This document shows positions 3-36,263 of a stretch of DNA of 42,358 nt, in pieces. The stretch lies in contig JAUVDT010000007.1 of the NCBI GenBank assembly GCA_030595185.1, positions 1 through 42,358 of the forward strand, in the 5' to 3' direction. Made by a program: the position numbers and the translations under genes. The stretch comes from Gammaproteobacteria bacterium (GTDB lineage: Bacteria > Pseudomonadota > Gammaproteobacteria > SZUA-229). A model generated the notes under the pieces. That model saw nothing but the letters and a program-made list of their open reading frames with translations. It did not search any database and was not told where the DNA came from. The first letter of the stretch is position 1. Every line of letters starts with the position of its first letter.

Positions 3-3000
3 GTAAACGGCTTGGGTGGTGATGATGTATTCAATATTAATGTAAGCAATGCTGCCGCTAGTTTTAATGGTGGTGCCGGTTTAGATACATTTAATGTTAG
101 TTTTTCTGATCAATCAATCAATATTGATGGTGGTGCAGGTGTTGATACCATTAAATTTAATGGTTCGACTGTTGATTCTTCAATGGCTGTACTGAATACT
201 AATAATGTAACCTTTACACATGATGATTCTACTTCAGGTGACACTCAGGTTACTGTAGTTACTACTGTCGAAAAAGTTGAAGATTACACGGCTTCAACTG
301 TATCGTCCTTAATTGGTTCATCGAATTCAGATACATTTGGTTTGTTTAATGAGGCAGATTTTAACTTGGCTGTTAATGTAACACCTGAACTTAATGTTTA
401 TTATGATGTGATTAATAACCTATCTATAGATATGGGAGATGGTGCAGACTTTGTAAATATTGATTCTGATACGTCGTTTAATGGTGTGTTAAATATTACT
501 TCTGAATCTATTGCAAGTACGAATGATTCTACCTTGCTTGCTTTAGCTATTATTTTGAATGGGTTTGATACGGTAGGGGCGTTAGATAATGGTCTAAACA
601 TAGGTTCAGTTGTTACTGATGGTACTCTGCAATTGACGTTAGATAACACTTCAGTCATTCAACCTACAAATGTATATTTTTATTTTGTTGATAATACTGA
701 TTTAGTAAGGGCATCAATCGTAGAAGATTTAAATATAAGTACTATCGCAAATATTACAGCGTCAGGTATTGTGGATGTTGCTGGTGCAATAAACATAAAT
801 GGTAATAGTTCAGTTAATGTTGATTTAAATAATGCTGCGAATGATTTTTCAAATATTTCTCTTAATAATTTAGGTTCTGTTTCATTAATTAATACCAATC
901 CTATTTTGCTTTCCAATGTTTCAGTTAATAATTTAACCATTGATACTGTGGGTGATATTTTATCAATTACAGATATTAGTGTTACAGGTAACTTATCACT
1001 TGATACAAGTAATAACGTTTCTGATATATCACTAACTAGTAATGGTAATACAATAAATAGTTTAGATATACTTCAGGCAAATAATGCAACAATTAGTAAT
1101 TCAGGCGCGCTCATTTTAGGTGATGTTAATCTTACTGGTGATCTTTTATTGACCTTGGATGGTGCTCTTACACAAACAGGAGTTATTAATGCTTCTACTT
1201 TAAATGTGAGCTTAACCGGTGTATATGATGTTGATTTGATGAGCTTAAATGACTTCGATAATTTGGTGGTGACCAACGCTGGTGTTCTGTCAATTAATGA
1301 TATTGGTGGTTTGTCGATTGGTGTTATAGATGCGACCAACGCATTGATACAAACGACAGGATCTATTGAGCAAACTGCATCATGGTCTATTGATAATGGT
1401 CTTACTGTTACAATGAACCCAGGTGATTCTTTAATATTAACGGACGTTGGTAACGTAATTAATGGAAATGTTACATTTAATACAACGGTTCAAGATGGAT
1501 TCTTCAATGATTTAAGGTTTTATAATGATGGTGATATTGTTTTAGGTTCAGTTAATGTTACTAATACATTGGATATTCAGTCTAATGGTGACTTGTCTGT
1601 TATTGGTGATATAAATATTGGCCTTAATGGTAGTGCAAGCTTTGATGCTGACCTTGATAACTCAGGTGATTTCTTTAGCGTTTCATTAACTGGTGATAAT
1701 TCATTATCAAACTTAATAGTCACTAATGCTTCTTCATTAGATGTTAACAATAGAGATTCGCTGACAATTGAGAATATAAATATTTCTGGTGATTTGAATC
1801 TTCAAATAAATCCTGATAATGCAGTTGCTAGTTATACTCTTGATAATTCTGGGAATATATTTGTGGGTGGTGATACTACCATTACAATGTCGAATAGTGA
1901 TGTTATTAATATTGGAAATTCGTTTGCTATTAACCTTGTTGGTGATACGAGTTTCAATGTACAGTCCGGTACATTGGAATCTTTAAACTTTACTTCATCA
2001 AATACATTAAATTTAGGCAACTCATCACTTATTACAGATAATGCATTAAATATTAACTCTGACTTAATGCTGGATTCTGATACATTATTACAAAGCAATA
2101 CATCAAGTGTAACTCATGTTGGAAGTATAGACGGTTTTGTAAATCTGACAGTCAATGCTTTACAGGGAAATATTGAATTCAGTAATTCTATGATTGGACA
2201 GTCAATCGTTCTTGATACTGTTAATATGACAGCTGAAATAATTAATGCAGGAAAAATAAATACAATCAATGGAATAACAATGCTGAGTAGTGTTGGGGGG
2301 ATTACATTTGATCAATTATCTTCTGAGTCAATTATTGACTTGACGTCTGCTGCAAATATTACAAGCAGTACTTTTGAAACGACTCTCAATTATGCTGACA
2401 TTACAGCTGCTAAGCTTGTCACAAATAGTGTTAATGGGGTGTCTGGCTTAAACGGTGATTTGCACACTGCTGTTAATGAATATGCGGGTGTTATTACGGG
2501 TTCTGGTGATCTTCAAATTAATAATAACGGTACGATTGAACTTAGTGGAATTGATGTGTTTGATGGTGATATCTCAATAACAGCTAGTGGCTCTATTAAT
2601 CAAACTGGAGATATTATAATTCAGCAGGGGACTCATAATCTGTCTCTTGTAGCAGGTAATGAAATAACAATGTTTGAACCAGCTGTATCTGTTCTTAATC
2701 ACGGTAATATCGTATACGAAGCCGAAAATACAATTACTATCAGTGAATTAACTGTTACAGGTGGTGATGGTGTTACTTCCGATAGTATTTATATAAAGTC
2801 AAACTCTGGTGATATAGCAACAACTAATAATATTATTTCTTTAGATGACCCTGATGTAACGGCTAATATAGTGACATTTGTAGCTCTAGGGTCTCTAGGT
2901 GTTGGGGCACAGCAGTTTGTTATTAATGCTGATAACGAAGTGACAATTGCTGCAGCTTTCAGTAATCAGCCATTGTATGTGGTGACGCCAGAAAATGGTG

Positions 3001-3185
3001 TTAGGGACACTAGTACTGTTATTAGTCCATCAGATACTTCATCTTTATTAGGTGGTGATCAAAGAACACAATTTTCTGAACTTAGTACGGTTGACCCAAC
3101 AATATTTACAGAAGTAAGAAACTTCGAAGAAGATGAAACTGCGATCCTGTTACCAGAAGATCAACTTTATTCGGCTAAGTTGTAG
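3..3185 (+). CDS. Large repetitive beta-helix exoprotein, C-terminal part (TpsA/filamentous-haemagglutinin-like)
   Basis: The frame is open to the left edge, so this is only the C-terminal ~1060 residues of a larger protein. A TTG at 12 is not a convincing start, because in-frame codons before it read V-N-G-L-G-G-D-D and belong to the repeat. The chain is rich in Asn, Asp, Ser, Gly, Ile and Val and almost free of Cys. It is built of short beta-strand repeats such as (N/S)-L-x-V-T-N-A near residues 420 and 570, and G-D-(L/T)-x-(L/F) turns, as in beta-helical secreted adhesins. The first ~50 residues carry GGAGxDT turns that resemble RTX-like repeats. No C-terminal membrane barrel is seen; the end is an acidic non-repetitive tail. 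Its stop overlaps the next gene's GTG start by one base. A two-partner-secretion substrate is inferred from repeat style and from the TpsB gene 31 kb downstream; the diagnostic N-terminal TPS domain lies outside the window. Confidence 0.75.
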   Translation, partial: VNGLGGDDVFNINVSNAAASFNGGAGLDTFNVSFSDQSINIDGGAGVDTIKFNGSTVDSSMAVLNTNNVTFTHDDSTSGDTQVTVVTTVEKVEDYTASTVSSLIGSSNSDTFGLFNEADFNLAVNVTPELNVYYDVINNLSIDMGDGADFVNIDSDTSFNGVLNITSESIASTNDSTLLALAIILNGFDTVGALDNGLNIGSVVTDGTLQLTLDNTSVIQPTNVYFYFVDNTDLVRASIVEDLNISTIANITASGIVDVAGAININGNSSVNVDLNNAANDFSNISLNNLGSVSLINTNPILLSNVSVNNLTIDTVGDILSITDISVTGNLSLDTSNNVSDISLTSNGNTINSLDILQANNATISNSGALILGDVNLTGDLLLTLDGALTQTGVINASTLNVSLTGVYDVDLMSLNDFDNLVVTNAGVLSINDIGGLSIGVIDATNALIQTTGSIEQTASWSIDNGLTVTMNPGDSLILTDVGNVINGNVTFNTTVQDGFFNDLRFYNDGDIVLGSVNVTNTLDIQSNGDLSVIGDINIGLNGSASFDADLDNSGDFFSVSLTGDNSLSNLIVTNASSLDVNNRDSLTIENINISGDLNLQINPDNAVASYTLDNSGNIFVGGDTTITMSNSDVINIGNSFAINLVGDTSFNVQSGTLESLNFTSSNTLNLGNSSLITDNALNINSDLMLDSDTLLQSNTSSVTHVGSIDGFVNLTVNALQGNIEFSNSMIGQSIVLDTVNMTAEIINAGKINTINGITMLSSVGGITFDQLSSESIIDLTSAANITSSTFETTLNYADITAAKLVTNSVNGVSGLNGDLHTAVNEYAGVITGSGDLQINNNGTIELSGIDVFDGDISITASGSINQTGDIIIQQGTHNLSLVAGNEITMFEPAVSVLNHGNIVYEAENTITISELTVTGGDGVTSDSIYIKSNSGDIATTNNIISLDDPDVTANIVTFVALGSLGVGAQQFVINADNEVTIAAAFSNQPLYVVTPENGVRDTSTVISPSDTSSLLGGDQRTQFSELSTVDPTIFTEVRNFEEDETAILLPEDQLYSAKL

Positions 3186-21762: not shown

Positions 21763-22051
21763 CCTTGTCCTTTTGTCTTCCATGAGTTTTAACGTCGACG
21801 TTCCTTATCAACGGTTAATAACATACACAACTCTTTCATGGAGTTCAATTCATTTTCTGTAAATCCATGATTATTTATTAAGTTAGCGAAATTGTTGAGT
21901 TTTTTTATTATATTTTGTGAGAATTATCCTACAAAAATAATTTTTGCTGAAAAGTAACTGGATAAAAAAACCTTGTGTGATTAGAATGCAGAATATGGAA
22001 CAGGCATTATTGGAATGATATGCCTGTCAATTGTTTGATTTTAAACGAGTG
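21741..22051. promoter_or_regulatory. Divergent intergenic region between tssA and the FHA operon
   Basis: This 311-base AT-rich gap must hold the promoters of both large T6SS operons. For tssA, a sigma70-like pair lies on the minus strand at 21820-21848: TTGAAC (21843-21848) and TATGTT (21820-21825), with 17-base spacing. Downstream of it, in the leader, is a perfect 12-base palindrome AACGTCGACGTT (21791-21802), a possible operator. CATGGA/TCCATG pairs occur at 21838 and 21864. For the FHA operon no convincing promoter was found; the A/T-rich stretch 21890-21960 is the likely area. No sigma54 element was found on either strand. Confidence 0.5.
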
Positions 22052-23602
22052 ATGGATATCTTGTTATTTACAATTGTTAAGTCTCCCGGAGCGGTGACAC
22101 TTACTGAACCTACCAAAAAAATCAGTAAGGACGGAGGAAGTATAGGGCGTGGTAGCGCGAATTCTTGGGTTTTACCTGATCCAGAACGCTATCTGTCGTC
22201 TGTTCATACTGAAATAATCTACAAAAATGATAAATTCTACGCAATAGATCAAAGCACTAACGGTACATTCTATAACGACATCTCAAAAGAAATTGGTAAA
22301 GGCAATGAAGTTGAGTTGCAGGATGGTGATCGTTTAATTATTGGCGATTATGAAATAGAAATATCATTATGGCAGGAAAATGACGATAGCCTTGCCTTAG
22401 ATGGCCCATTTGCCGTTTCAAATCAGCCGGCTCCAGTTCCTGATATACCTCTTGAACCCATGAATATTCCACTGGGTGATGATTTAATTCCAATGAACGA
22501 TTCACCATTATCTATGGGCGTGAGTCAACAATTATCAAATGATCATCCCATATTACAAGAGGAAGCCATTCTGGATCCTTTATTAGCTTTTAAATCTTCA
22601 GAAGCTATTGATGATGTTTTTCCTGTAGGGACTCAGGGTGATGTTGGTAATATTATGAGTCACGCTGTTCAATTTCCTGAAATGATTCCTGATAACTGGT
22701 TTGATTTACCTTTGCCAGGTTTAGACGAAGAAGTTGAAGTGATAGATTCACCTGTTACAGAAATGGAAGCTACTCCTCAGTCTATTTTAAGAAATAAACT
22801 AACCTCTGAAATTGGTATCGGAAGAGAATCAAGCCTTTATGTAAATGATGCTAATGATTACCAAAGACCAAAACCCGGGGCAGTAAAAAAGCATTCAAAG
22901 TCAGCAGAACCAATAAAGAGAAGGTCTTCTTCGACACAGACAAAGCAGAAAAGTAAGGCAAAAAAAATAAAGAATTCAAATGCCAACAGTAGTCCAGTAA
23001 TCTCAGCAAATGAAGACCTAATCGCTGCACTTGGTTTAAATGTTGCTGACATGAATGATGAACAAATTAATGAAATTAATGATGTAGTTGGTGAATTTAC
23101 CCAGATTGCAGTAAAAGGTTTAATGCTGATATTAAAGTCTCGTAGCAGTTTGAAAAGTGAGTTTAGAATGAACGTGACAACGATTCAATCGGCTGAAAAT
23201 AATCCATTAAAATTCTCGCCGACATTAGAAGATGCAATGTTTAATATGTTTGTACGCGGTGGCAATGCATATAAAGACCCCGTTACAGCGGTAAAAGAAG
23301 GTATTGAAGGTGTTGCAGATCATCAGTTTTCAGTCTTCGCTGGTATGCGATCAGCGTTTAATTTTTTATTAGAAAGGTTTAATCCCGAAATATTGCAGGC
23401 AAAGTTTGATAAACATAAATCTTCAAGCCTGTTATCGAGTAAAAAAGCGAAAAATTGGGATCTATACACCACTTTCTATCAAGACATTATTAAAGATCGT
23501 GATGATTCATTTCAATATTTATTTGGCGATGAGTTTGTGCAAGCGTATGAACAACAGATGCAACAATTAAAAATAACAAGAGCTAACAGCAAAGAGCAAT
23601 AG
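22052..23602 (+). CDS. tagH: FHA-domain T6SS regulator/scaffold (TagH/Fha type)
   Basis: A 516-residue cytoplasmic protein with an N-terminal FHA domain, which binds phosphothreonine. The contact residues are present: S-I-G-R-G (Arg33), S-S-V-H (49-52) and S-T-N-G-T (Asn70). A low-complexity Pro/Asp-rich linker and a basic K/S-rich stretch (about 275-320) lead to the helical T6SS-FHA C-terminal domain (about 325-510). An in-frame TTG at 22031 is possible, but the ATG at 22052 begins where the family begins and is preferred; its ribosome site is weak. It is the first gene of the + operon that ends with phosphatase and kinase, so it probably reads out PpkA phosphorylation and triggers assembly. 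Confidence 0.92.
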   Translation: MDILLFTIVKSPGAVTLTEPTKKISKDGGSIGRGSANSWVLPDPERYLSSVHTEIIYKNDKFYAIDQSTNGTFYNDISKEIGKGNEVELQDGDRLIIGDYEIEISLWQENDDSLALDGPFAVSNQPAPVPDIPLEPMNIPLGDDLIPMNDSPLSMGVSQQLSNDHPILQEEAILDPLLAFKSSEAIDDVFPVGTQGDVGNIMSHAVQFPEMIPDNWFDLPLPGLDEEVEVIDSPVTEMEATPQSILRNKLTSEIGIGRESSLYVNDANDYQRPKPGAVKKHSKSAEPIKRRSSSTQTKQKSKAKKIKNSNANSSPVISANEDLIAALGLNVADMNDEQINEINDVVGEFTQIAVKGLMLILKSRSSLKSEFRMNVTTIQSAENNPLKFSPTLEDAMFNMFVRGGNAYKDPVTAVKEGIEGVADHQFSVFAGMRSAFNFLLERFNPEILQAKFDKHKSSSLLSSKKAKNWDLYTTFYQDIIKDRDDSFQYLFGDEFVQAYEQQMQQLKITRANSKEQ

Positions 23603-25572: not shown

Positions 25573-26571
25573 ATGAGCGATACTCCAGATAAAACAATTA
25601 TACGATCTTCACGTAAAACATCAGCTGCTGATAAGACGGTTATTAGGCCATCTCCAGGTAGGCGTGCAGCTCAAACTCCCAGACAATCTCCCGGGCAAAC
25701 AATCCCTTCAGATAATTTTGATTTGCCAGTTATGCAAGCTCAAGAGCGAGCAGCGCCTCAACATATAAATCCGGATGTAATTGTTCAACATATTGGGCCA
25801 AATGTTAATGATCTTATTAGCTGTGCAGCAACGTTGATAGGTGTTTACAGCCAACTAAAAAATACAATGGCTCATAATGATGAAAATGGATTGTATTCTC
25901 GATTACTAAATGAAATAAAACTGTTTGAGAAACACAGTAAAGAATTGATGATAAAACCAGAAATTGTATTAGCTTCTCGATACATACTCTGCACAATGTT
26001 AGATGAAGCTATCATGAATACTCCTTGGGGAAGTTCTGGTCAGTGGTCACAACATACTTTATTAAGTACATTTCACAATGAAACAGCTGGTGGAGAAAAG
26101 TTCTTTTTATTACTGGATAGAATGCGTGAAACACCAGCAGAAAATATAGAAATTATTGAATTAATGTATCTCTGCTTAAGTATTGGATTTGAAGGGAAAT
26201 ATCGTGTTATTTATAACGGTAAAGAGCAAATAGAATTAATTCGTGATGATTTATTTATTTTAATTAGAAATTTTCGCGGAGAGTTTGAAAGAGACTTATC
26301 TTTTGGTTGGACAGGTCAATTGGGTAAAACATCAACATTAACTGAGTACTTGCCAATTTGGGTGGTTGCCAGTGTGTTTTCAATGATTATGTTTTTTAGC
26401 TATTTAGGTTTCCACCTGTGGTTATCCGAATCATCAACAAACGTAATGGATAGAATAGATAAGATTACAACGATTATGGATGAAAGCAAACAAGTTAAAA
26501 AAGCATCTGCTTTTGAAAGAAATAATGAAAGAGATACAGATAATATCTTTAAAAGAAGAGGAGCTAACTAA
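25573..26571 (+). CDS. tssL: TssL, T6SS inner-membrane protein with phospho-motif N-terminus
   Basis: A 332-residue DotU/IcmH-like protein of the T6SS membrane complex. The cytoplasmic helical domain spans about 80-250 (S-R-Y-I-L-C-T-M-L-D-E-A-I-M-N-T-P-W-G and G-F-E-G-K-Y-R are family marks). One membrane helix follows near residues 257-277, then a short periplasmic tail; the OmpA-like peptidoglycan-binding extension found in some TssL proteins is absent. The first 50 residues are a disordered tail with two copies of D-K-T-[IV]-I-R (Thr8 and Thr22). In Agrobacterium, PpkA phosphorylates the TssL N-terminus at a Thr and the FHA protein binds it; these repeats look like the same type of site. 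The stop overlaps the tssM start (TAATG). Confidence 0.93.
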   Translation: MSDTPDKTIIRSSRKTSAADKTVIRPSPGRRAAQTPRQSPGQTIPSDNFDLPVMQAQERAAPQHINPDVIVQHIGPNVNDLISCAATLIGVYSQLKNTMAHNDENGLYSRLLNEIKLFEKHSKELMIKPEIVLASRYILCTMLDEAIMNTPWGSSGQWSQHTLLSTFHNETAGGEKFFLLLDRMRETPAENIEIIELMYLCLSIGFEGKYRVIYNGKEQIELIRDDLFILIRNFRGEFERDLSFGWTGQLGKTSTLTEYLPIWVVASVFSMIMFFSYLGFHLWLSESSTNVMDRIDKITTIMDESKQVKKASAFERNNERDTDNIFKRRGAN

Positions 26572-29500
26572 TGAGTAAGTTAGTTTCCATTTTTAAAGAT
26601 AAACGATTTATTACCGTAATAGGCTTGATTTCATTGGCGTGCCTTATTTGGTTTGCTGGTCCCTATATTCGATTTGGCGAGTCAAGTTACACACCGTTAG
26701 AGTCAAGCACCGCTCGTTTGGTTTTTATAATAATCATCTTAATGATTTGGGGTTTAAATAATTTACGTCATCAATACGTTACTAATAAAAAGAACAATGA
26801 ATTTATAGAAGATATAAATAGTAATAATGAAAGTTTATCAAATGATAAAATCCAAAGCGTTGAAGAACTAAAGGTTTTAAGTGAACGGTTTAGTAATGTG
26901 CTTGATACATTAAAGAAAATAAGAATAAAAGGTAAATATAATAATTCGAAAGCAATCTATGAACTGCCCTGGTATATCATTATTGGACCACCAGGGTCAG
27001 GTAAAACAACGGCTCTTATTAATTCAGGTTTGGAGTTTCCATTAGCAGAACAAACGGGTTCTGCATCATTACAAGGCATTGGTGGAACTAGAAACTGTGA
27101 TTGGTGGTTTACTAATGATGCCGTGATGATCGATACGGCAGGGCGCTATACAACTCAAGATAGCCATAGAGGTGTTGATAGTTCGGCATGGAATGGTTTT
27201 CTTAAACTATTGAAAAAGAATCGCCCAAGAAGACCAATCAATGGTGCGATTATTGCAATTAGTGTTCAGGACCTACTGCTTCAAACAGAAGAAGAACGTT
27301 CCTGGCATGCAAAAACGATTAGAAATCGTATTGATGAGTTGACCTCAAACCTAGGTGTTAAATTCCCTGTTTATATTATGTTAACTAAGTGTGACCTAAT
27401 TTCTGGTTTCACTGAATTTTTTAATGACTATGGTCATTATGACAGAGAAGATGTTTGCGGTATTACTTTTCCTCTGGAAGAAGATAGAGCAACTGACTTT
27501 GATTGGTGGAGTGGTGAATATGACAATCTCGTTAATAGGATGTTTGATAGAGTCTTAGGGCGTATTCATCAAGAACGAGATATACAAAGACGAACTAAAA
27601 TTCAATTATTTCCCCAGGAACTGGCGAACTTAAAATCATCGATTGAATCATTTTTACGACAGACTTTTTCATCAAGTCGTTATCATGATATGCCTTATTT
27701 ACGAGGTGTGTATTTCTCAAGTGGAACACAAGATGGAACGCCTATTGACAGGATGATGACATCGATATCTCAAAACTATGGCATGAACCCTTCGGTTGTG
27801 CAGTCAGCACCTGGGCAGGGTAAAAGTTATTTCATAAGTCGATTGTTTAAAGAGCTGATATTTAGTGAATCAGAATTGGTTGGTACTAATAAAAAGACAG
27901 AAAAGATATATAAATGGGGAAGAAAATCTGCCTACATTACATTGCTAGGAATGTTTTTTGGTAGCCTTGCTGCATGGACGGGGAGTATTGCAAGTAACCA
28001 ATTATTATTAAGTGATATCGATGCATATATTACAAAATATGAGAGTGAGAATCGTCGCATTAAATCATGGAATACTGATCTTAGAAGAGTGCTGCCTACA
28101 TTAAATGCATTGCATTCAGCTAGTCTTGTATATGATAAAAATGAGCATCCCTGGCTTAGTAATTTTGGCTTGTATAATGGGTCTGTTGACCAAAGACTGG
28201 ATGAGTTATATTTATCTAATCTAAATCATTTATTTGAACCAAGAATTACTAAATATCTTGAAAAAGATTTAAGAGCAGCTAAAAATGAGCCGGGTGTGTT
28301 GTACGATGATTTAAAAACGTATCTTATGTTTCAAGATTCAGAGCATTATGACAAACAACATTTATTAAATTGGTATAAAAGTTCATGGAAAAATGAATTT
28401 AATAATAAACTCGTTGTTCAAAAACAGCTAAATACTCACCTTGTCGCGTATCTTGATGATTACGTAGGTGATACAAAGTTAGATAAGTTACTAATTCAGT
28501 CATCTCGAAATCACTTAATGCGTATTCCAGTTGCAACTAGAATATATGAACGCATTAAAGCAAATGAAGAGTATTCAACTCGAATTAATATTGGTAATTA
28601 TTTAGGGGAATCATCATACGATATCTTTAAATATAATAATAAAGCCTTAGCCAGTTTTACAATGCCTTATCTGTTTACAAAGAATGCTTATGAAGAATTA
28701 GATTTTAGTTCTGAATCACCTTACTTAAATGCAATTTTAAGTGATGACTGGGTGTTGTCATCAAGTAATCGTATGTCAAATAGCAGAATGAATTTGAATT
28801 ATGATGATAGTCAACTTGAAGAAATTGGTGATAGGGTTAAGTCTTTATACCTGGCTGATTATGCCCAGCACTGGAACAGGTCTTTAAGTCAGCTTGATCT
28901 TAAGGGCTTTTCTTCGCTTTCAATTGCCTCTAAACGTTTATCTGAATTATCAGATGCAGTTTATTCTCCTATTACCAGGATGCTTGAAGTAACGAGTGCT
29001 AATACTCAGTTATCTCCCTATGTTCCTGTTGAAATACCCGGAGCTGGTGATAAATCTGCGAAGGGAAAATTATCTGCTGGGCTAGGCAGTATGCTTGCAT
29101 CAACACTGGGTAGTAATAAAGTTGATAAACAGTTTAGTAAACTTAATAAACTCAGTCGTGAATCTAAAAGCAAACCTGCACCTATTGGTTCTACATTATT
29201 ACTCTTAGGCGAATTGTATGCTTACGTTAATGAAATATTAATCTCACCTGAACCAAATGAGGCCGCTTATAAAGCAGCTAAAAGTAGATTTTCTGGATCT
29301 AGTAGTGATGTGTTTAGAAAAATACAAGTTCATGCTGCGGGTTTACCTCAGCCAGTACGTGAGTGGGTTCTGCATTTGTCTTCACAGTCATGGAATGTGG
29401 TACTTGCCTCGGCTAAGAGTTATATCCAGCAGCAATGGCGAATTCAGGTTTTGAATAACTATAAAGTCGGTATTAAAAATAAATACCCAATATATGGTGC

Positions 29501-30116
29501 ATCAAAGCAAGAATTAGAGCTGTTTGACTTCACTGAGTTTTTCAAAGCTAAAGGTCTCTATAAAGATTTCACAGCACAATATTTATCACCTTTCATAAAG
29601 AAAGGCAGGAAATGGAGTCTTAAAAGAGTTGATGGTAGAACAATAGGTCTTAAATCTACATCAGTTGCTCAATTACAGCGCGGAAATTTAATTAGTGATG
29701 TATTCTTTAAGGCTAACCCAGAGCAGCCATCATTTAGTTTCCAAAGTCGCCCATCTAAAATGTTAAAAACGGTGTCACGTTTTGTTTTAGACATGGGTGG
29801 AAAGAAATATGAATATTCACATGGCCCAAAGTTTTGGACACCACATATATGGCCGGGTGGTGTTGATGCTCAACGCGTCAGTATTTATTTTGAAAAGTTA
29901 GATAGTGAAGTATTAACTCGCGATTACGAAGGTGCGTGGGCATGGTTTAAATTGTTAGATCACTCACGTTTAACTTCAACCTATCAATCGAATAAATACA
30001 GTGTTATTTATTCGATGGCAGACTCAGAAATTAATTACGATTTAAAAGCAAGTAGTGCGGTTAATCCATTTACTAGCGGCTTACTAAGTAAATTTCGCTG
30101 TCCAGAGGTGCTTTAA
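26571..30116 (+). CDS. tssM: TssM, T6SS inner-membrane trans-envelope protein
   Basis: An 1181-residue IcmF-like protein that spans the envelope and contacts TssL inside and TssJ outside. Two membrane helices lie at about residues 14-30 and 49-62. A cytoplasmic NTPase domain follows with Walker A G-P-P-G-S-G-K-T (139-146) and D-T-A-G-R-Y near residue 187. A third membrane helix sits near 460-480, then a long periplasmic part ending in the beta-rich TssJ-binding region. Both Walker motifs are intact, so ATP/GTP binding is possible here, unlike in some TssM proteins. The start overlaps the tssL stop by one base, and tagF starts directly after its stop. Confidence 0.96.
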   Translation: MSKLVSIFKDKRFITVIGLISLACLIWFAGPYIRFGESSYTPLESSTARLVFIIIILMIWGLNNLRHQYVTNKKNNEFIEDINSNNESLSNDKIQSVEELKVLSERFSNVLDTLKKIRIKGKYNNSKAIYELPWYIIIGPPGSGKTTALINSGLEFPLAEQTGSASLQGIGGTRNCDWWFTNDAVMIDTAGRYTTQDSHRGVDSSAWNGFLKLLKKNRPRRPINGAIIAISVQDLLLQTEEERSWHAKTIRNRIDELTSNLGVKFPVYIMLTKCDLISGFTEFFNDYGHYDREDVCGITFPLEEDRATDFDWWSGEYDNLVNRMFDRVLGRIHQERDIQRRTKIQLFPQELANLKSSIESFLRQTFSSSRYHDMPYLRGVYFSSGTQDGTPIDRMMTSISQNYGMNPSVVQSAPGQGKSYFISRLFKELIFSESELVGTNKKTEKIYKWGRKSAYITLLGMFFGSLAAWTGSIASNQLLLSDIDAYITKYESENRRIKSWNTDLRRVLPTLNALHSASLVYDKNEHPWLSNFGLYNGSVDQRLDELYLSNLNHLFEPRITKYLEKDLRAAKNEPGVLYDDLKTYLMFQDSEHYDKQHLLNWYKSSWKNEFNNKLVVQKQLNTHLVAYLDDYVGDTKLDKLLIQSSRNHLMRIPVATRIYERIKANEEYSTRINIGNYLGESSYDIFKYNNKALASFTMPYLFTKNAYEELDFSSESPYLNAILSDDWVLSSSNRMSNSRMNLNYDDSQLEEIGDRVKSLYLADYAQHWNRSLSQLDLKGFSSLSIASKRLSELSDAVYSPITRMLEVTSANTQLSPYVPVEIPGAGDKSAKGKLSAGLGSMLASTLGSNKVDKQFSKLNKLSRESKSKPAPIGSTLLLLGELYAYVNEILISPEPNEAAYKAAKSRFSGSSSDVFRKIQVHAAGLPQPVREWVLHLSSQSWNVVLASAKSYIQQQWRIQVLNNYKVGIKNKYPIYGASKQELELFDFTEFFKAKGLYKDFTAQYLSPFIKKGRKWSLKRVDGRTIGLKSTSVAQLQRGNLISDVFFKANPEQPSFSFQSRPSKMLKTVSRFVLDMGGKKYEYSHGPKFWTPHIWPGGVDAQRVSIYFEKLDSEVLTRDYEGAWAWFKLLDHSRLTSTYQSNKYSVIYSMADSEINYDLKASSAVNPFTSGLLSKFRCPEVL

Positions 30117-30887
30117 ATGTCTGGCTGTAAAATGGGTTTATATGGAAAGCTACCATCACATGGTGATTTTGTAGCGCGTGATTTGCCACCTTCATTTATA
30201 AATATATGGGACGAATGGTTGCAGCGAGGTATGTTATGTTCGCAAGAAGAGTTAGGAGACAAATGGTTAGAGATCTATTTAACTAGTCCAATCTGGCGTT
30301 TTTCATTATCACCTGGTGTTATTGATAATAATAACTGGGCCGGGATTATGATTCCGAGCGTCGACAGGGTTGGTCGATATTTTCCTTTTACATTATTAGC
30401 TCAATTGCCTGTTGAATATAATGGAATGGATATAATATCTTCAGAAGCAGGCTGGTTTCGTGAGCTTGAGAATTTAGCTTTAGAAGGCCTGGATGGTCAC
30501 TTAGATGTCGATGAAATTTATGCTGAACTTTTATCTCTTAAAATGTTAAATGCAGCTTTATATCAAACTAATCTTCAGCCTGGTCAATCTTCTTCGTCAC
30601 ATTTATCCATTGAAATGGATTTTGATGAACAACTACCATCTTCAGTTTACCCTGCATTGATTGATTATCTTCTTCGACGAGATGGTCAAAGTTATAGTGT
30701 GTGGCACAGTTTAGGTTCTGAAATTGTACAGCCTTGTGTTCTTTTATCTAAAGGCTTGCCTCCTGCAAGAGGTTTAACGGCTCTAATTGATGGGCAATGG
30801 CAACAACACAATTGGTTTATGCCGATAGAAGCATTATTACCATCGTCTGATCAGAACAAACAATTAATCCCAGAAGAAATATTCTAA
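30117..30887 (+). CDS. tagF: TagF, T6SS post-translational regulator
   Basis: A 256-residue protein of the TagF family (DUF2094), which in other systems represses T6SS assembly, in some cases by binding the FHA protein. The opening G-L-Y-G-K-L-P-S-H-G-D-F-V, the W-D-E-W-L-Q segment near residue 32 and P-S-V-D-R-V-G-R-Y-F-P-F near residue 80 are the family signature. The start follows the tssM stop with no gap and its stop shares one base with pppA. In Pseudomonas aeruginosa H1-T6SS the homologue acts apart from the PpkA pathway, so two layers of control are likely here. Confidence 0.94.
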   Translation: MSGCKMGLYGKLPSHGDFVARDLPPSFINIWDEWLQRGMLCSQEELGDKWLEIYLTSPIWRFSLSPGVIDNNNWAGIMIPSVDRVGRYFPFTLLAQLPVEYNGMDIISSEAGWFRELENLALEGLDGHLDVDEIYAELLSLKMLNAALYQTNLQPGQSSSSHLSIEMDFDEQLPSSVYPALIDYLLRRDGQSYSVWHSLGSEIVQPCVLLSKGLPPARGLTALIDGQWQQHNWFMPIEALLPSSDQNKQLIPEEIF

Positions 30888-31639
30888 TGCTCCAGTTTGC
30901 ATCAACAGAAGTAACACACGCAGGTTCTGTCAGAGAAGTAAATGAAGACTCTGTTTTATCTAAAAAAGAGAGTGGCTTATGGGTAGTTGCTGATGGTATG
31001 GGAGGATACGAGGCTGGTGATGTTGCAAGTAAAATGCTTGTTGATGCTCTGGATGAAATCACACTAGGGGATAGCATTACATCAAATATTGAAAATATTG
31101 AACAAACGGTATTAGATGTAAACCAACGAATTATAGATCACTCTAATTTGGTTTTTGAAGGAAGAGTCTTTGGTAGTACTGTCGTACTTGTTTATCTCTA
31201 TGAAAATTTAGGTTTTGTATTTTGGGCTGGCGATTCTCGTTTATATAGACTCAGAGATAATGTATTAAAAAAAATCACACGTGATCATAGTCAGTTACAA
31301 GAAATGTTAGATAGTAATCTTCTTTTGCCTGAGGAAGTTGAAAACTATCCCGATCACAATATCATTACAAGAGCTGTTGGCGCAGAAGAAACATTAATGC
31401 TTGATTTTTTAGCATTTAAAATTGAAGAAGATGATAAGTTTTTATTGTGTAGCGATGGTTTATATAATTCTGTCAATGATAATCAAGTTCAAGCAATACT
31501 AAATAACGGCAGTATCCATTTGAATTCTAAACAACTAATTGAAGCAGCTTTAGAAAATGGTGCTAGTGATAATGTGTCTTTTATTTTAATACAAGATAGT
31601 AATGGCGAAACAATTACAAATGTGAAGTTCAGAAGTTAA
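30887..31639 (+). CDS. pppA: PppA, PP2C-type Ser/Thr phosphatase
   Basis: A 250-residue PPM/PP2C phosphatase that should remove the phosphates set by PpkA. The metal-binding and catalytic motifs are intact: G-S-V-R-E-V-N-E-D-S (13-22), V-A-D-G-M-G-G (34-40), A-G-D-S-R near residue 110, C-S-D-G-L near 183 and D-N-V-S near 222. No membrane segment is seen. It overlaps the tagF stop (TAATG-like junction) and ends one base before the ppkA start, so the opposing enzymes are made together. Confidence 0.95.
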   Translation: MLQFASTEVTHAGSVREVNEDSVLSKKESGLWVVADGMGGYEAGDVASKMLVDALDEITLGDSITSNIENIEQTVLDVNQRIIDHSNLVFEGRVFGSTVVLVYLYENLGFVFWAGDSRLYRLRDNVLKKITRDHSQLQEMLDSNLLLPEEVENYPDHNIITRAVGAEETLMLDFLAFKIEEDDKFLLCSDGLYNSVNDNQVQAILNNGSIHLNSKQLIEAALENGASDNVSFILIQDSNGETITNVKFRS

Positions 31640-31640
31640 T

Positions 31641-34175
31641 ATGGAAACAATAATAAAAAATAAAGGACCTGGTAAAAATAATCAACCATCTGAACACTCA
31701 GATGATGCTACTGTTTTTAAAAACATTAAACGAACATTGCCTAATAAACAAATTCCCTTAACTGATGAACCTACAAGAGTGAGATCTGGTGTTAATAAAG
31801 CAGCTGCTAAGACTTCAAATAATCAGGCTGCAGTATCCTCAGCAGCTAACCGTGGTGCAAAGAAAACCCCGAGAATATTACAGAAGAGATTTAAGTTAGA
31901 AAAGGTTCTGGGTGTTGGCGGTATGGGTGTTGTGTATAAGGCTATTGATTTACGTAAAGTTGAAGCTAAAGATAGAAACCCATATGTTGCAATTAAAGTC
32001 TTAAATGACGACTTTAAAAATCACCCGGACTCATTGATTGCATTACAACGAGAAGCAAGAAAGTCACAAAGTATTGCGCATCCCAATATTGTAAACGTAC
32101 ATGACTTTGATAGAGATGGCGATATTGTTTTTATGACAATGGAGTTCCTTGATGGTTTGCCATTGGATAAAGTAATAAAACAATATCAATATATTGGCTT
32201 GCCTATGAATCAGGCATGGACAGTTTTAAAAGGTATATGTGACGCATTAATCTATGCGCATCAAGAGAATATAGTACATTCTGACTTTAAACCAGGGAAT
32301 ATCTATCTAACCTCAAAAGGTGTCGCCAAGGTTTTTGATTTTGGTATTTCTCGCGCAGTTTCAGTCTCAGATTTAAAATCAGATTCAGACTCAGGTGATA
32401 AAACAATATTCGACGCAGGTACATTAGGTGCTTTAACACCAGCTTATGCCAGTTTGGAAATGTTAAACGGCGCAGCCCCTGATGAGCGTGATGATATATA
32501 TGCATTAGGTTGTGTTGCATATGAAATATTTAGCGGGGAGCATCCTTTTGGCAGGTTATCAGCCGAAAAGGCAATGTCTAAAAAGTTAAAACCTAAAAAG
32601 TTACAAGAATTATCTAGCACTCAATGGAATACGCTTAAAAAAGCTTTATCTTTTAAGAGAAAAGATAGAATTTCTTCAGTTGAAGAATTCTATAGTTTAA
32701 TGTTTGTTGAAAAATCAGCAGGAAAAAAAGTAGTTATTGGTCTTTCTGTTGTTATAGCTGTAATGATATCTACGGCCATATATTATGGTTTATATAAAGA
32801 ATCAAACGTAGTTCTTCAGTCCGGAGTTAGCCAGTCAGATATAAAATCATATAAAGACGATATAGAAAACCTGGTGAAATCACCAAATTTCACTTCTATT
32901 CAATGGCACGACGATCTTTGGCATGCGTTTAAATTACTATGGAAAGTAATACCTGAAAATGATAGTTGGTCCTATACGGCAGAAAACGAAGTAATAAAAC
33001 TTTACGTCACCGAAATTAATAGTCTTTTAAAATATAATAAAACTAATGAGGCAGATATACTTCTTTCAGAGGCAATTAAGTATTCTGATAATGATGGGCT
33101 TTTACAGGGTGTAAAGCGATCAATTCAAGAGTTGAGAAATAAAGTAGGTTCTGAAGAAATTGCTAAATTAAAGCTGCAGCAATATGAGCAACAAAAGCGG
33201 TTTGACTTACAAAGAGCGAATTTGAGAAAAAGTATATTAAATGAGCAGAAATACGATACAGCTGAAATTAAAAGAAAATATAATTTAGCGCTAAATGATG
33301 TCAGTAAGCATTTGCTTTGTCGAGATGGAATAAATGTAAGGCTGTTTGGTAAATCGTTAAAGATGCTTAGTTTAATTGATGTGAAACGATATAAAAAACA
33401 AAAACAGGGGTTAATAGGTTCGACAATTTCATGTATTAATAAAATCTCAGTGGATAGTCAAAGTAAGGCTGAAAAACTAAAAAAATATGCAATGCAATAT
33501 TTCCCTACTAGTACACTATTAAAACAACTTGAAATAGGCTTGATTGATTTATGTAAGTCAGCGTTTGCAGGTAAAGCCGCTAAAAGTTCTCGGTCAGTAT
33601 GTCAGGATTCTTTGGGTAAGGGTGTTATTGGGCCTAAAATGGTTGTGGTAAAACCAAATAGAGATACAATTTATTATGCTATAAGCAAATATGAAGTTAG
33701 TAATAGGGATTTTAATTATTATTGTGAGTCAACGGGTAAGTGTAAATCTAAAACAAAAAAACTAGATTACCCGGCAAATAACGTTTCAATTTTACAGGTT
33801 AATAATTATATTTCCTGGTTGAGTTCAACGAGTCAGAAAAAGTACTCGCTACCATCTCATTATCAATGGCTTCAGGCGGCTAGAGCTTCTTCAAATATAT
33901 TAGACCCTAATCGTAATTGTTCAATGAATTCAAGGGGAATTCTTAAAGGTGTGTCATTGGTTTCAGTGACATCTGGCAAGCAAAATGATTGGGGCTTAGT
34001 CAATGCCGTGGGTAATGTTCAAGAGTGGGTAGTAAAAGGTCGTGATCAAGAGCTATATGTAGCTGGTGGATCTAGAGAAGATGATTTTTCAAGTTGTAAT
34101 ATTAATAGCTTGAACAAACACTCAGGTAAAGCAAATGAGTTAACAGGGTTTAGAGTAGTGAGAGAAATCATATAA
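31641..34175 (+). CDS. ppkA: PpkA, membrane Ser/Thr kinase fused to an FGE/SUMF1-like sensor domain
   Basis: An 844-residue kinase. Order: disordered N-terminus (1-78) with D-D-A-T-V-F-K at 21-27; kinase domain (about 83-355) with the glycine loop G-V-G-G-M-G-V-V at 91-98, Lys119 in A-I-K, H-S-D at 213-215, Asn220 and D-F-G at 233-235; one membrane helix (about 364-384); a periplasmic helical and coiled-coil region (about 395-640); and a C-terminal FGE-sulfatase/SUMF1-like domain (about 660-843; I-S-K-Y-E-V-S-N-R-D-F, A-V-G-N-V-Q-E-W-V, G-F-R-V-V). The catalytic loop has Ser in place of the usual Arg of HRD, so it is a non-RD kinase. The activation loop contains D-K-T-I-F (Thr255). In P. aeruginosa a separate SUMF1-like protein, TagR, controls PpkA; here the domain is fused. 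The stop overlaps the next ATG. Confidence 0.94.
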   Translation: METIIKNKGPGKNNQPSEHSDDATVFKNIKRTLPNKQIPLTDEPTRVRSGVNKAAAKTSNNQAAVSSAANRGAKKTPRILQKRFKLEKVLGVGGMGVVYKAIDLRKVEAKDRNPYVAIKVLNDDFKNHPDSLIALQREARKSQSIAHPNIVNVHDFDRDGDIVFMTMEFLDGLPLDKVIKQYQYIGLPMNQAWTVLKGICDALIYAHQENIVHSDFKPGNIYLTSKGVAKVFDFGISRAVSVSDLKSDSDSGDKTIFDAGTLGALTPAYASLEMLNGAAPDERDDIYALGCVAYEIFSGEHPFGRLSAEKAMSKKLKPKKLQELSSTQWNTLKKALSFKRKDRISSVEEFYSLMFVEKSAGKKVVIGLSVVIAVMISTAIYYGLYKESNVVLQSGVSQSDIKSYKDDIENLVKSPNFTSIQWHDDLWHAFKLLWKVIPENDSWSYTAENEVIKLYVTEINSLLKYNKTNEADILLSEAIKYSDNDGLLQGVKRSIQELRNKVGSEEIAKLKLQQYEQQKRFDLQRANLRKSILNEQKYDTAEIKRKYNLALNDVSKHLLCRDGINVRLFGKSLKMLSLIDVKRYKKQKQGLIGSTISCINKISVDSQSKAEKLKKYAMQYFPTSTLLKQLEIGLIDLCKSAFAGKAAKSSRSVCQDSLGKGVIGPKMVVVKPNRDTIYYAISKYEVSNRDFNYYCESTGKCKSKTKKLDYPANNVSILQVNNYISWLSSTSQKKYSLPSHYQWLQAARASSNILDPNRNCSMNSRGILKGVSLVSVTSGKQNDWGLVNAVGNVQEWVVKGRDQELYVAGGSREDDFSSCNINSLNKHSGKANELTGFRVVREII

Positions 34176-34391: not shown

Positions 34392-36263
34392 ATGAATTGT
34401 AGGAAATGTTTCTTTTTAGTTTTGATATCGTTCGCTCATAATACATGGTCAATTACTTTAAATATCCCTGAAAAAGTGAATGAAAGGGATTTGAAGTACA
34501 AGAATGTAGTCGTAAAAGATAAAAATATACCGGCTGTTAGCAAACGTAATCCAGATCCTTCTAAAGGCCCGAGAATACCGGTAAAAGAGTTTAAGATACA
34601 AGGTGTTAAATCATATCCTGATTTGTCTATCAGTAAAACGGAACTTGATAAACTGATTGAAGAGAAGCGTTATGGAATGATGGATGAAGCTTTTTTACAA
34701 AAAAGCGGTTATACAATTAAAGAGTTGCTTGAGCTAGCAGAAACTTTATCTAAGATTGGTGCGACTAATGATGGTGATTATGTTGAATTACCTGATGTTC
34801 AAAAACTTATCTGGTTACTTAAAGAGCAAAAAAATAACCGTGGTTTAACCATTGGTGAAATAGAAGAAATTGCAGATGCAATAACAACTTATTATCGTTC
34901 ACATGGTTTCTTTTTAGCGAAAGCTTTTGTGCCTAAGCAAGATGTACGAGGCGGTATAGTTGGCCTAACAGTTCTTGAAGGTGTTTTAGGGAAAGTAACG
35001 GTTGCCAGTAATGATTTATATGATTCGAATTTTCTTGTTGGTTTATTTGATGATTTAAAGAATAAACCTGTTATATATGAAAACATAGAGCAAAAATTAT
35101 ATTTACTTAATGACTATCCTGGACTCAAAGTATCAGGGTATTTTAATCCGGGTGATCAGATAGGTGATACACACCTTAACCTTAATATTCTTAAAGAAGA
35201 TTCCTCTAATTCCTTAATTCGACTGGATAATCATGGTTCAGAGTTTACAGGGCAGAATCGTCTTTATTTTCAACATCAATTTAATACGCCTGTCGGTTAT
35301 GGTGATCAGTTAACAATAGGTGTGATGCAAACATCGACTCCTGATAATACAACTTACAGTTCTTTGAGCTATCGTATCCCCGTGATTAACGAAAAAAACT
35401 ATGTGTATTTTTCTATAAGTAATAACCAGTTTGTTATTGACCCAACACAGGGTAATATAATTACGGGGCAAGGTTTAAATGGTACAACAGAAGTTAGTAA
35501 AGTGTCTTATGAGCACGTTATAAGACGAACGAGAAAAAATTCTAAAAATATAAGGTTTGATATACAGAAAAGTGTCTCAGATGTTAATAATGATATATCT
35601 AATTTAGATAGGTATAACAGTATAGATGCTTTTATTGCTTCATATTATTACGACAAGCTGTCAGAAACAGGTAAGAGTCTTAATAATGGTAAAGTACTGG
35701 TGACTATCGGTGATTCATTAGAGATTTTACCAAATACGTCTGATACAGATGAAAGTATAAGTAAGATAAATTTCTCACACACTTATCTTAAATTTAGTCA
35801 TATCCCTTTTACCAGTCAACCAGTGCGATATATTGTAAAAGCAAATATGCAATGGACTGATGAAAGATTGCCCTCTATAGAACAAGTCCCATTAGGAGGC
35901 CCAGATCATGTAAGAGCTTTCCTTGTGACGGACTATTCTGCTGACGTAAGTACGCATATTGGTATGGAAATGCATTTTAACTATCCAAAGTGGATGAATT
36001 TTAAAATTGGCAACAAACTTAAAATGTCTAATATTGCTAATCCATATTTATTTGCAGATATTGCCTACGGAGAGCAATTAGCCGCTAATGATAATCAAAC
36101 AGCTGAGTTTCGTGGTTGGGGAATAGGCTTAGAGTTTAAGTATAAAAGCTCTGTAACAGGTCATTTAATATTTGCTAAGCCTACTTATCTGCGCGATTCG
36201 TATACGTCTAGTGAAATAGTAAAGGAAAATAAAGTTATATTTGATATGCAGTATAGTTTTTAA
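34392..36263 (+). CDS. Two-partner-secretion outer-membrane transporter (TpsB, ShlB/FhaC family)
   Basis: A 623-residue Omp85-superfamily transporter. A signal peptide (1-20, ending T-W-S) and a linker lead to POTRA1, whose first strand is at 64-71. An insert of about 58 residues (92-150) follows, and the POTRA resumes with A-I-T-T-Y-Y-R-S-H-G-F-F-L-A-K-A-F-V-P-K-Q-D (163-184), a TpsB hallmark. POTRA2 spans about 200-275. The C-terminal 16-strand barrel follows, with V-P-L-G-G-P-D-H-V-R-A-F near 500 (the conserved loop-6 motif) and a terminal Phe after Q-Y-S. The start has AGGA six bases upstream and lies 13 bases after the 67-residue gene, with no terminator between, so it probably shares the T6SS transcript. 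Its likely cargo is the exoprotein at the left end. Confidence 0.9.
   Translation: MNCRKCFFLVLISFAHNTWSITLNIPEKVNERDLKYKNVVVKDKNIPAVSKRNPDPSKGPRIPVKEFKIQGVKSYPDLSISKTELDKLIEEKRYGMMDEAFLQKSGYTIKELLELAETLSKIGATNDGDYVELPDVQKLIWLLKEQKNNRGLTIGEIEEIADAITTYYRSHGFFLAKAFVPKQDVRGGIVGLTVLEGVLGKVTVASNDLYDSNFLVGLFDDLKNKPVIYENIEQKLYLLNDYPGLKVSGYFNPGDQIGDTHLNLNILKEDSSNSLIRLDNHGSEFTGQNRLYFQHQFNTPVGYGDQLTIGVMQTSTPDNTTYSSLSYRIPVINEKNYVYFSISNNQFVIDPTQGNIITGQGLNGTTEVSKVSYEHVIRRTRKNSKNIRFDIQKSVSDVNNDISNLDRYNSIDAFIASYYYDKLSETGKSLNNGKVLVTIGDSLEILPNTSDTDESISKINFSHTYLKFSHIPFTSQPVRYIVKANMQWTDERLPSIEQVPLGGPDHVRAFLVTDYSADVSTHIGMEMHFNYPKWMNFKIGNKLKMSNIANPYLFADIAYGEQLAANDNQTAEFRGWGIGLEFKYKSSVTGHLIFAKPTYLRDSYTSSEIVKENKVIFDMQYSF

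Follow-up and report, generated by a model that had tools for sequence, protein, structure and literature searches.

The window, by which is meant the whole 42,358-nt stretch of DNA analysed (contig JAUVDT010000007.1, from a gammaproteobacterium), carries a complete-looking type VI secretion system (T6SS) cluster, as judged from gene order and Pfam profile matches. This report concerns short threonine motifs in the N-terminal tails of two of its proteins, TssL and the kinase PpkA, and the FHA-domain protein Fha, which may read them. The plus-strand operon runs fha, tssJ, tssK, tssL, tssM, tagF, pppA, ppkA (tssM identified from position and size), with clpV, tssG, tssF, tssE, tssA and others on the minus strand; by Pfam match the kinase, a PP2C phosphatase and the FHA protein all belong to the T6SS operon, as do TagF, TssJ, TssK and TssL.

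Genes and candidate sites at the locus

22052..23602, plus strand: Fha/TagH, FHA domain and T6SS_FHA_C (Pfam PF00498, 1.3e-14; PF20232, 1.1e-52)
23177..23179, plus strand: Fha Thr376 (EFRMNV-T-TIQ), candidate phosphosite, conserved among canonical Fha (defined below)
25573..26571, plus strand: TssL (DotU), with an N-terminal tail of ~78 residues predicted to be disordered (Pfam PF09850, 3.5e-62)
25588..25605, plus strand: TssL site 1, DKTIIR, residues 6–11 (Thr8), by direct reading
25630..25647, plus strand: TssL site 2, DKTVIR-PSPGRR, of which DKTVIR is residues 20–25 (Thr22); the widely conserved site, from logo and alignment
30887..31639, plus strand: PppA, PP2C phosphatase, predicted eraser (Pfam PF13672, 6.5e-12)
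31641..34175, plus strand: PpkA, Ser/Thr kinase, kinase domain ~83–350 and FGE-sulfatase-like C-terminal domain (Pfam PF00069, 1.3e-36; PF03781, 2e-10)
31644..31658, plus strand: PpkA tail ETIIK, residues 2–6 (Thr3), possible further site, by direct reading
31701..31721, plus strand: PpkA tail DDATVFK, residues 21–27 (Thr24), by direct reading and tail motif enrichment
31764..31784, plus strand: PpkA tail DEPTRVR, residues 42–48 (Thr45), by direct reading; DxTR[IVF] class
32397..32411, plus strand: PpkA activation loop DKTIF, residues 253–257 (Thr255), from group conservation and alignment with the PknB loop

A first-pass annotation had proposed that PpkA marks both itself and TssL with one phosphothreonine code, to which Fha docks. 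The four motifs it listed (TssL 6–11 and 20–25, PpkA 21–27 and 253–257) are exact in the translations, and its description of both N-termini as disordered agrees with structure models, built on shallow alignments of 6–7 sequences, in which residues 1–76 of TssL and of PpkA have a predicted local distance difference test score (pLDDT) <50. Beyond that list are PpkA E2-T3-I-I-K6, PpkA D42-E-P-T45-R-V-R48 and Fha Thr376. The start of Fha is ambiguous (TTG at 22031, 523 residues; ATG at 22052, 516 residues). Numbered from the ATG, its phosphothreonine-binding residues R33, S50, H52 and N70 are all present, and it is this start that the annotation's Arg33 and Asn70, rightly called intact, match.

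The TssL tail motif and the state of the FHA pocket

Conservation was examined in 140 T6SS loci of up to ~20 kb each, from the same class and phylum and all Pseudomonadota, plus six named loci from a scan for PpkA kinases (6/80 usable; most of the rest are PpkA-like kinases of Burkholderiales that lack a neighbouring TssL). Profile models iterated from the window proteins located TssL, the kinase, FHA and the remaining components; the loci are a sample, from which kinase or FHA genes more than ~10 kb away escape. The strict TssL tail pattern was [DE]xT[VILMQ][VILFM], and FHA domains retaining both Arg and His were termed canonical.

The logo of 92 TssL sites reads D-[RK]-T-[VI]-[IFVL]-[RK]-P-x-P-G-G-R, with conservation extending to flanks beyond the search pattern (R/K at −1 and +3, P at +4, P and G at +6/+7), and D20, T22, P26, P28 and G29 are unchanged across seven alpha- and gammaproteobacterial TssL. 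T8 and T22 of the window both stand in the context acidic-x(1–2)-T-[VI]-[VIF], which is conserved across loci. TssL tails of the 62 canonical-FHA loci hold 62 occurrences of [DE]xT[VIL][VILF] compared with 0.9 in shuffled tails, Thr, Ser and Ala occupying the same context in the ratio 62:1:2; mirror, Ser, Ala and Lys control patterns gave 1–2 each. The same shuffle comparison found no excess of DxT[VIL][VILF] in PppA, TagF, TssM or TssJ, and in TssK 26 against 9.5 expected. Apparent misses in TssL at L051–L054, L068 and L079 were first-ATG start artefacts, the motif lying just upstream and in frame.

The window and ~15 relatives share a two-site layout, DKTVF[RK]Q followed 11–14 residues on by D[RG]TV[IVL]RP, and site 1 of the window corresponds in position to DKTVF[RK]Q of the relatives. 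Two- or three-site TssL tails, some with other spacing, occur elsewhere too (L077, L094, L098, L105, L248), and Pseudomonas-type loci have DRTQFMP in TssL and no PpkA tail array. Within the window's group the two-site layout is kept; that the two sites set a threshold, as the annotation suggested, is speculation.

Presence of the motif follows the state of the FHA domain. The strict form was found in 53/62 canonical-FHA loci, where shuffled tails predict 1.5, versus 1/57 kinase-less loci with either no FHA or an FHA that has lost its Arg (Fisher, 4e-23); the single exception among the latter, L110, is a short contig. In Arg-lost FHA loci considered separately the count is 0/14, with the kinase also missing there. 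Among the nine canonical-FHA misses, three carry near forms (GRTVVRPRPGG, NQTIIRPKPGG, NRTVIRPNPG) and four are of the Rhizobium type, LPT[IV]VEL, resembling the proven Agrobacterium site DLPTVVEI. L062 has no TssL motif but DVTVVK in the PpkA tail, and L226 combines a canonical FHA with complete absence of the motif. Mapped on a tree of TssL domains, FHA state and motif fit a model of dependent evolution better than one of independence (likelihood ratio 30, p 5e-6), giving solid but not huge support for the co-occurrence.

As a check, 18 named T6SS loci from plasmids and chromids were held out until the pattern had been fixed; among them the strict motif is present in 8/10 with canonical FHA versus 0/8 others. 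Motif-bearing loci are those of Pseudoalteromonas THAF3 and CF6-2 (two sites each), P. frederiksbergensis, Caballeronia, Tistrella, Leisingera, Bradyrhizobium and Qingshengfaniella; the two strict misses with canonical FHA are Rhizobium K102 (LPTIVEL) and Skermanella (near form DQTAIVP). The motif is missing where the FHA Arg is lost or displaced (Thalassospira, Salinivibrio, Photobacterium, Rhizobium acidisoli), where the FHA is of SRLQ type (Burkholderia stagnalis, Pantoea) and where no FHA was found (Enterobacter, B. ambifaria). TagH of V. cholerae, for which Ser38 and Lys54 are named as binding residues and no PpkA is reported (PMC8993066), fits the Arg-lost class. The first-pass annotation had let its reading hang on conservation of these Thr in orthologues; in TssL the Thr is indeed conserved, and its presence follows FHA competence.

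An FHA subclass with SRLQ or SRVQ instead of SxxH was observed at L058, L211, L212, L214, L241, L244, L250, L275 and L281; some of these loci retain a PxPGG remnant in the TssL tail, and the C-domain Thr of Fha is kept where checked.

Motifs in PpkA and Fha

PpkA has intact catalytic motifs (HSDFKPGN at 213, matching HxDxxxxN, and DFG at 233–235), and its tail motifs resemble those of TssL. In the 62 canonical-FHA loci, PpkA tails contain 53 DxTR[VILF] against 0.3 expected and 10 DxT[VIL][VILF] against 1.2, with Thr:Ser:Ala at 63:1:2 in the same context. Relatives of the window carry arrays of up to seven copies (in L112: DKTRIK, DPTRIA, EKTRLA, DKTRI, DKTRIA, DVTRFK, DKTRI), reduced to two or three motifs in the window tail; many PpkA tails are short or motif-free, e.g. 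the 7-residue tail of Pseudomonas H1-like kinases. For Thr24, one of the positions singled out by the annotation, it is the motif class that persists in the window's relatives; the position is not fixed, and many PpkA have no tail motif.

Thr255 lies between the DFG and LTPAY, within an activation loop whose sequence in the window's group is D[KQR]T[VIL]FDAGxLGALTPAY; in alignment with PDB sequences it falls within a residue or so of the PknB autophosphorylation sites Thr171/Thr173. On the basis of the conserved D-x-T-[VLI]-F-D and this alignment, Thr255 is most likely the activating autophosphorylation site of the kinase, a role that needs no FHA docking; its context resembles that of the TssL Thr, which would agree with a preference of PpkA for such a sequence. 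The idea of the same code on kinase and TssL survives for the tail, where related motifs are enriched; at the loop, kinase activation explains the Thr, and FHA docking there is unsupported and appears unlikely.

Residues 679–799 of PpkA, approximately (window 33675–34037), match the FGE-sulfatase domain, with a likely membrane segment near 365–385, and the C-terminal part is possibly a periplasmic sensor. Burkholderiales PpkA-like kinases (L137–L209, no TssL nearby) have the same ATVFDP-type activation loop and 75 DxT-type tail motifs against 8.4 expected; at L174:9647-20231 the neighbours of such a kinase include a caspase/FGE-sulfatase protein and another that carries two FHA domains.

In the C-terminal domain of Fha, the Thr of E-[FL]-R-x3-T (Thr376 in the window) is present in 54/57 ungapped canonical Fha, is usually replaced in Arg-less Fha and was not found in Rhizobium-type Fha. 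Because the Fha of Teredinibacter is reported to keep Thr362 (PMC2699552), Thr376 is probably equivalent to Thr362 of Fha1. Some relatives only, the window Fha not among them, have DxTL just before this domain (e.g. VDTTLI). A PDB sequence search with the FHA domain gave no match at 1e-3. Most of the kinase-controlled systems sampled carry both candidate sites, that of TssL and that of Fha.

Elsewhere in the window, a two-partner-secretion transporter (ShlB/POTRA_2) is encoded at 34392–36263, directly after ppkA, and a 1057-residue protein with DUF5649 repeats at 12–3185, followed by two TPR proteins, beside that end of the T6SS cluster where hcp and vgrG lie.

Probable phosphothreonine docking, alternatives and known systems

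The near-restriction of the motif to loci with a working FHA pocket suggests that the TssL tail Thr are very probably docking marks written by the kinase and read by Fha. PpkA would phosphorylate Thr22 and, in the two-site group, Thr8; the FHA domain of Fha would bind pThr22/pThr8, recruiting Fha, and through it the remaining machinery, to the TssL–TssM membrane complex, and PppA would erase the TssL mark. Given the tail motifs of kinases in the window's group, PpkA probably binds Fha as well, its autophosphorylated tail (pThr24/pThr45) holding Fha near TssL and the membrane complex. FHA domains bind phosphothreonine, not phosphoserine, so the near absence of Ser from the motif points to reading by FHA beyond kinase preference alone. 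The TssL part of the annotation's interpretation is accordingly retained as likely, and docking of Fha on the PpkA tail is plausible and mildly favoured. The reactions known from studied systems may take place at the corresponding residues here as well, and paired sites or arrays may act multivalently.

Several observations weigh against docking. At +1, most PpkA-tail motifs carry Arg in contrast to the Val/Ile of TssL; a shared FHA pocket may therefore not apply, and a single reader for both is hypothetical. Parsimony on the TssL tree counts only ~6 FHA-state changes and 10 motif changes, and some canonical-FHA loci show no kinase within ~10 kb. The FHA group with His changed to Gln (SRLQ type) keeps the kinase and the Fha Thr, yet has mostly lost the TssL Thr, the motif being present in 1/7 of the main set; this exception is unexplained. 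In Agrobacterium, binding of FHA to the isolated phosphorylated TssL peptide is weak (Kd, the dissociation constant, 0.5–1.6 mM; PMC3953482), an affinity that makes multivalency plausible.

The TssL motif could instead be a mere substrate or kinase-docking sequence of PpkA, phosphorylation altering the charge of TssL or the conformation of TssM while Fha reads something else, e.g. its own pThr376. This would agree with the Agrobacterium finding that the structural transition of TssM requires TssL phosphorylation but not phosphothreonine binding by FHA (PMC3953482), as well as with the conserved Thr of Fha itself. Plain kinase recognition would not, however, require Thr almost to the exclusion of Ser, Arg-lost FHA loci lack the motif (though also the kinase), and binding of FHA to phosphorylated TssL has been shown directly in Agrobacterium, all of which makes this alternative improbable. 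More improbable still is a phosphorylation-independent contact, e.g. with TssK or TssM, kept by chance in subtypes with FHA and kinase: the PxPGGR half is also conserved and, in some loci of Burkholderia type, persists where the Thr is gone (GGFVPPNPGG), but the correlation between FHA and motif holds on the tree, similar motifs recur in PpkA tails, and losses follow changes in the FHA pocket. Short patterns can arise by chance in disordered tails, here rich in Pro and Ser, but a low-complexity coincidence is ruled out by the shuffled-tail and control-pattern counts.

If docking is general, PpkA may place one class of pThr tag on TssL (one to three copies), its own tail (up to seven) and Fha, joining kinase, Fha and membrane complex in a multivalent, phosphatase-reversible seed for assembly; this wider proposal is tentative, and we stop just short of favouring it. 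The literature treats the PpkA target as species-specific, i.e. as alternatives: Fha for Pseudomonas and Serratia, TssL for Agrobacterium and V. alginolyticus. The loci examined here suggest that both coexist in most kinase-controlled systems. Were the proposal true, species described as 'Fha target' or 'TssL target' would be showing two aspects of one system, and the arrays in the kinase tail would account for PpkA–Fha binding and Fha foci that depend on the kinase and not on Fha phosphorylation. The motif is recognisable by eye from alpha- to gammaproteobacteria, so that precise positions for mutagenesis can be picked out in many model T6SSs. The PpkA–TssL–Fha pathway itself is already known (Agrobacterium, V. 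alginolyticus); the general TssL motif, its link to FHA competence and the kinase-tail arrays are new.

Among possible precedents, the switch of GarA/OdhI type (E-T-T-x-V-F), of which the first-pass annotation invoked GarA, does not match in register: the GarA motif is Thr-Ser-Val-Phe, out by one residue from the directly adjacent Thr-Val-Phe seen here. Agrobacterium is closer. There, TssL Thr14 is phosphorylated in a PpkA-dependent manner and the FHA domain of Fha (R30, S46) binds the peptide DLPpTVVEI; T14 is reported as conserved in Agrobacterium and Rhizobium, not in distant orthologues (PMC3953482). In both systems the TssL tail has a Thr preceded by an acidic residue and followed by Val/Ile (+1) and a hydrophobic position (+2). 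Agrobacterium has a single site, acidic at −3 and with Glu as its +3 residue, and the window has DKT[IV]I[R]-(P) in two TssL copies plus further copies in the kinase tail. For V. alginolyticus T6SS2 a review reports a gammaproteobacterial parallel, phosphorylation of TssL by PpkA2 leading to recruitment of Fha (PMC10482370). P. aeruginosa H1 and Serratia share the kinase–phosphatase–FHA set and have a C-terminal Thr of Fha to which Thr376 of the window probably corresponds, but the PpkA target described there is Fha (Thr362 and Thr438, respectively), not TssL. In the TssW–PpkA–Fha system of Acidovorax citrulli, which forms condensates, kinase activity strengthens PpkA–Fha binding (PMC12607579): kinase-dead PpkA binds Fha less, Fha foci require active kinase and not Fha phosphorylation, and catalytic residues are said to stabilise the interaction, no docking motif being identified in the sections consulted. 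Kinase-tail arrays would offer a concrete explanation for this activity-dependent association as there described.

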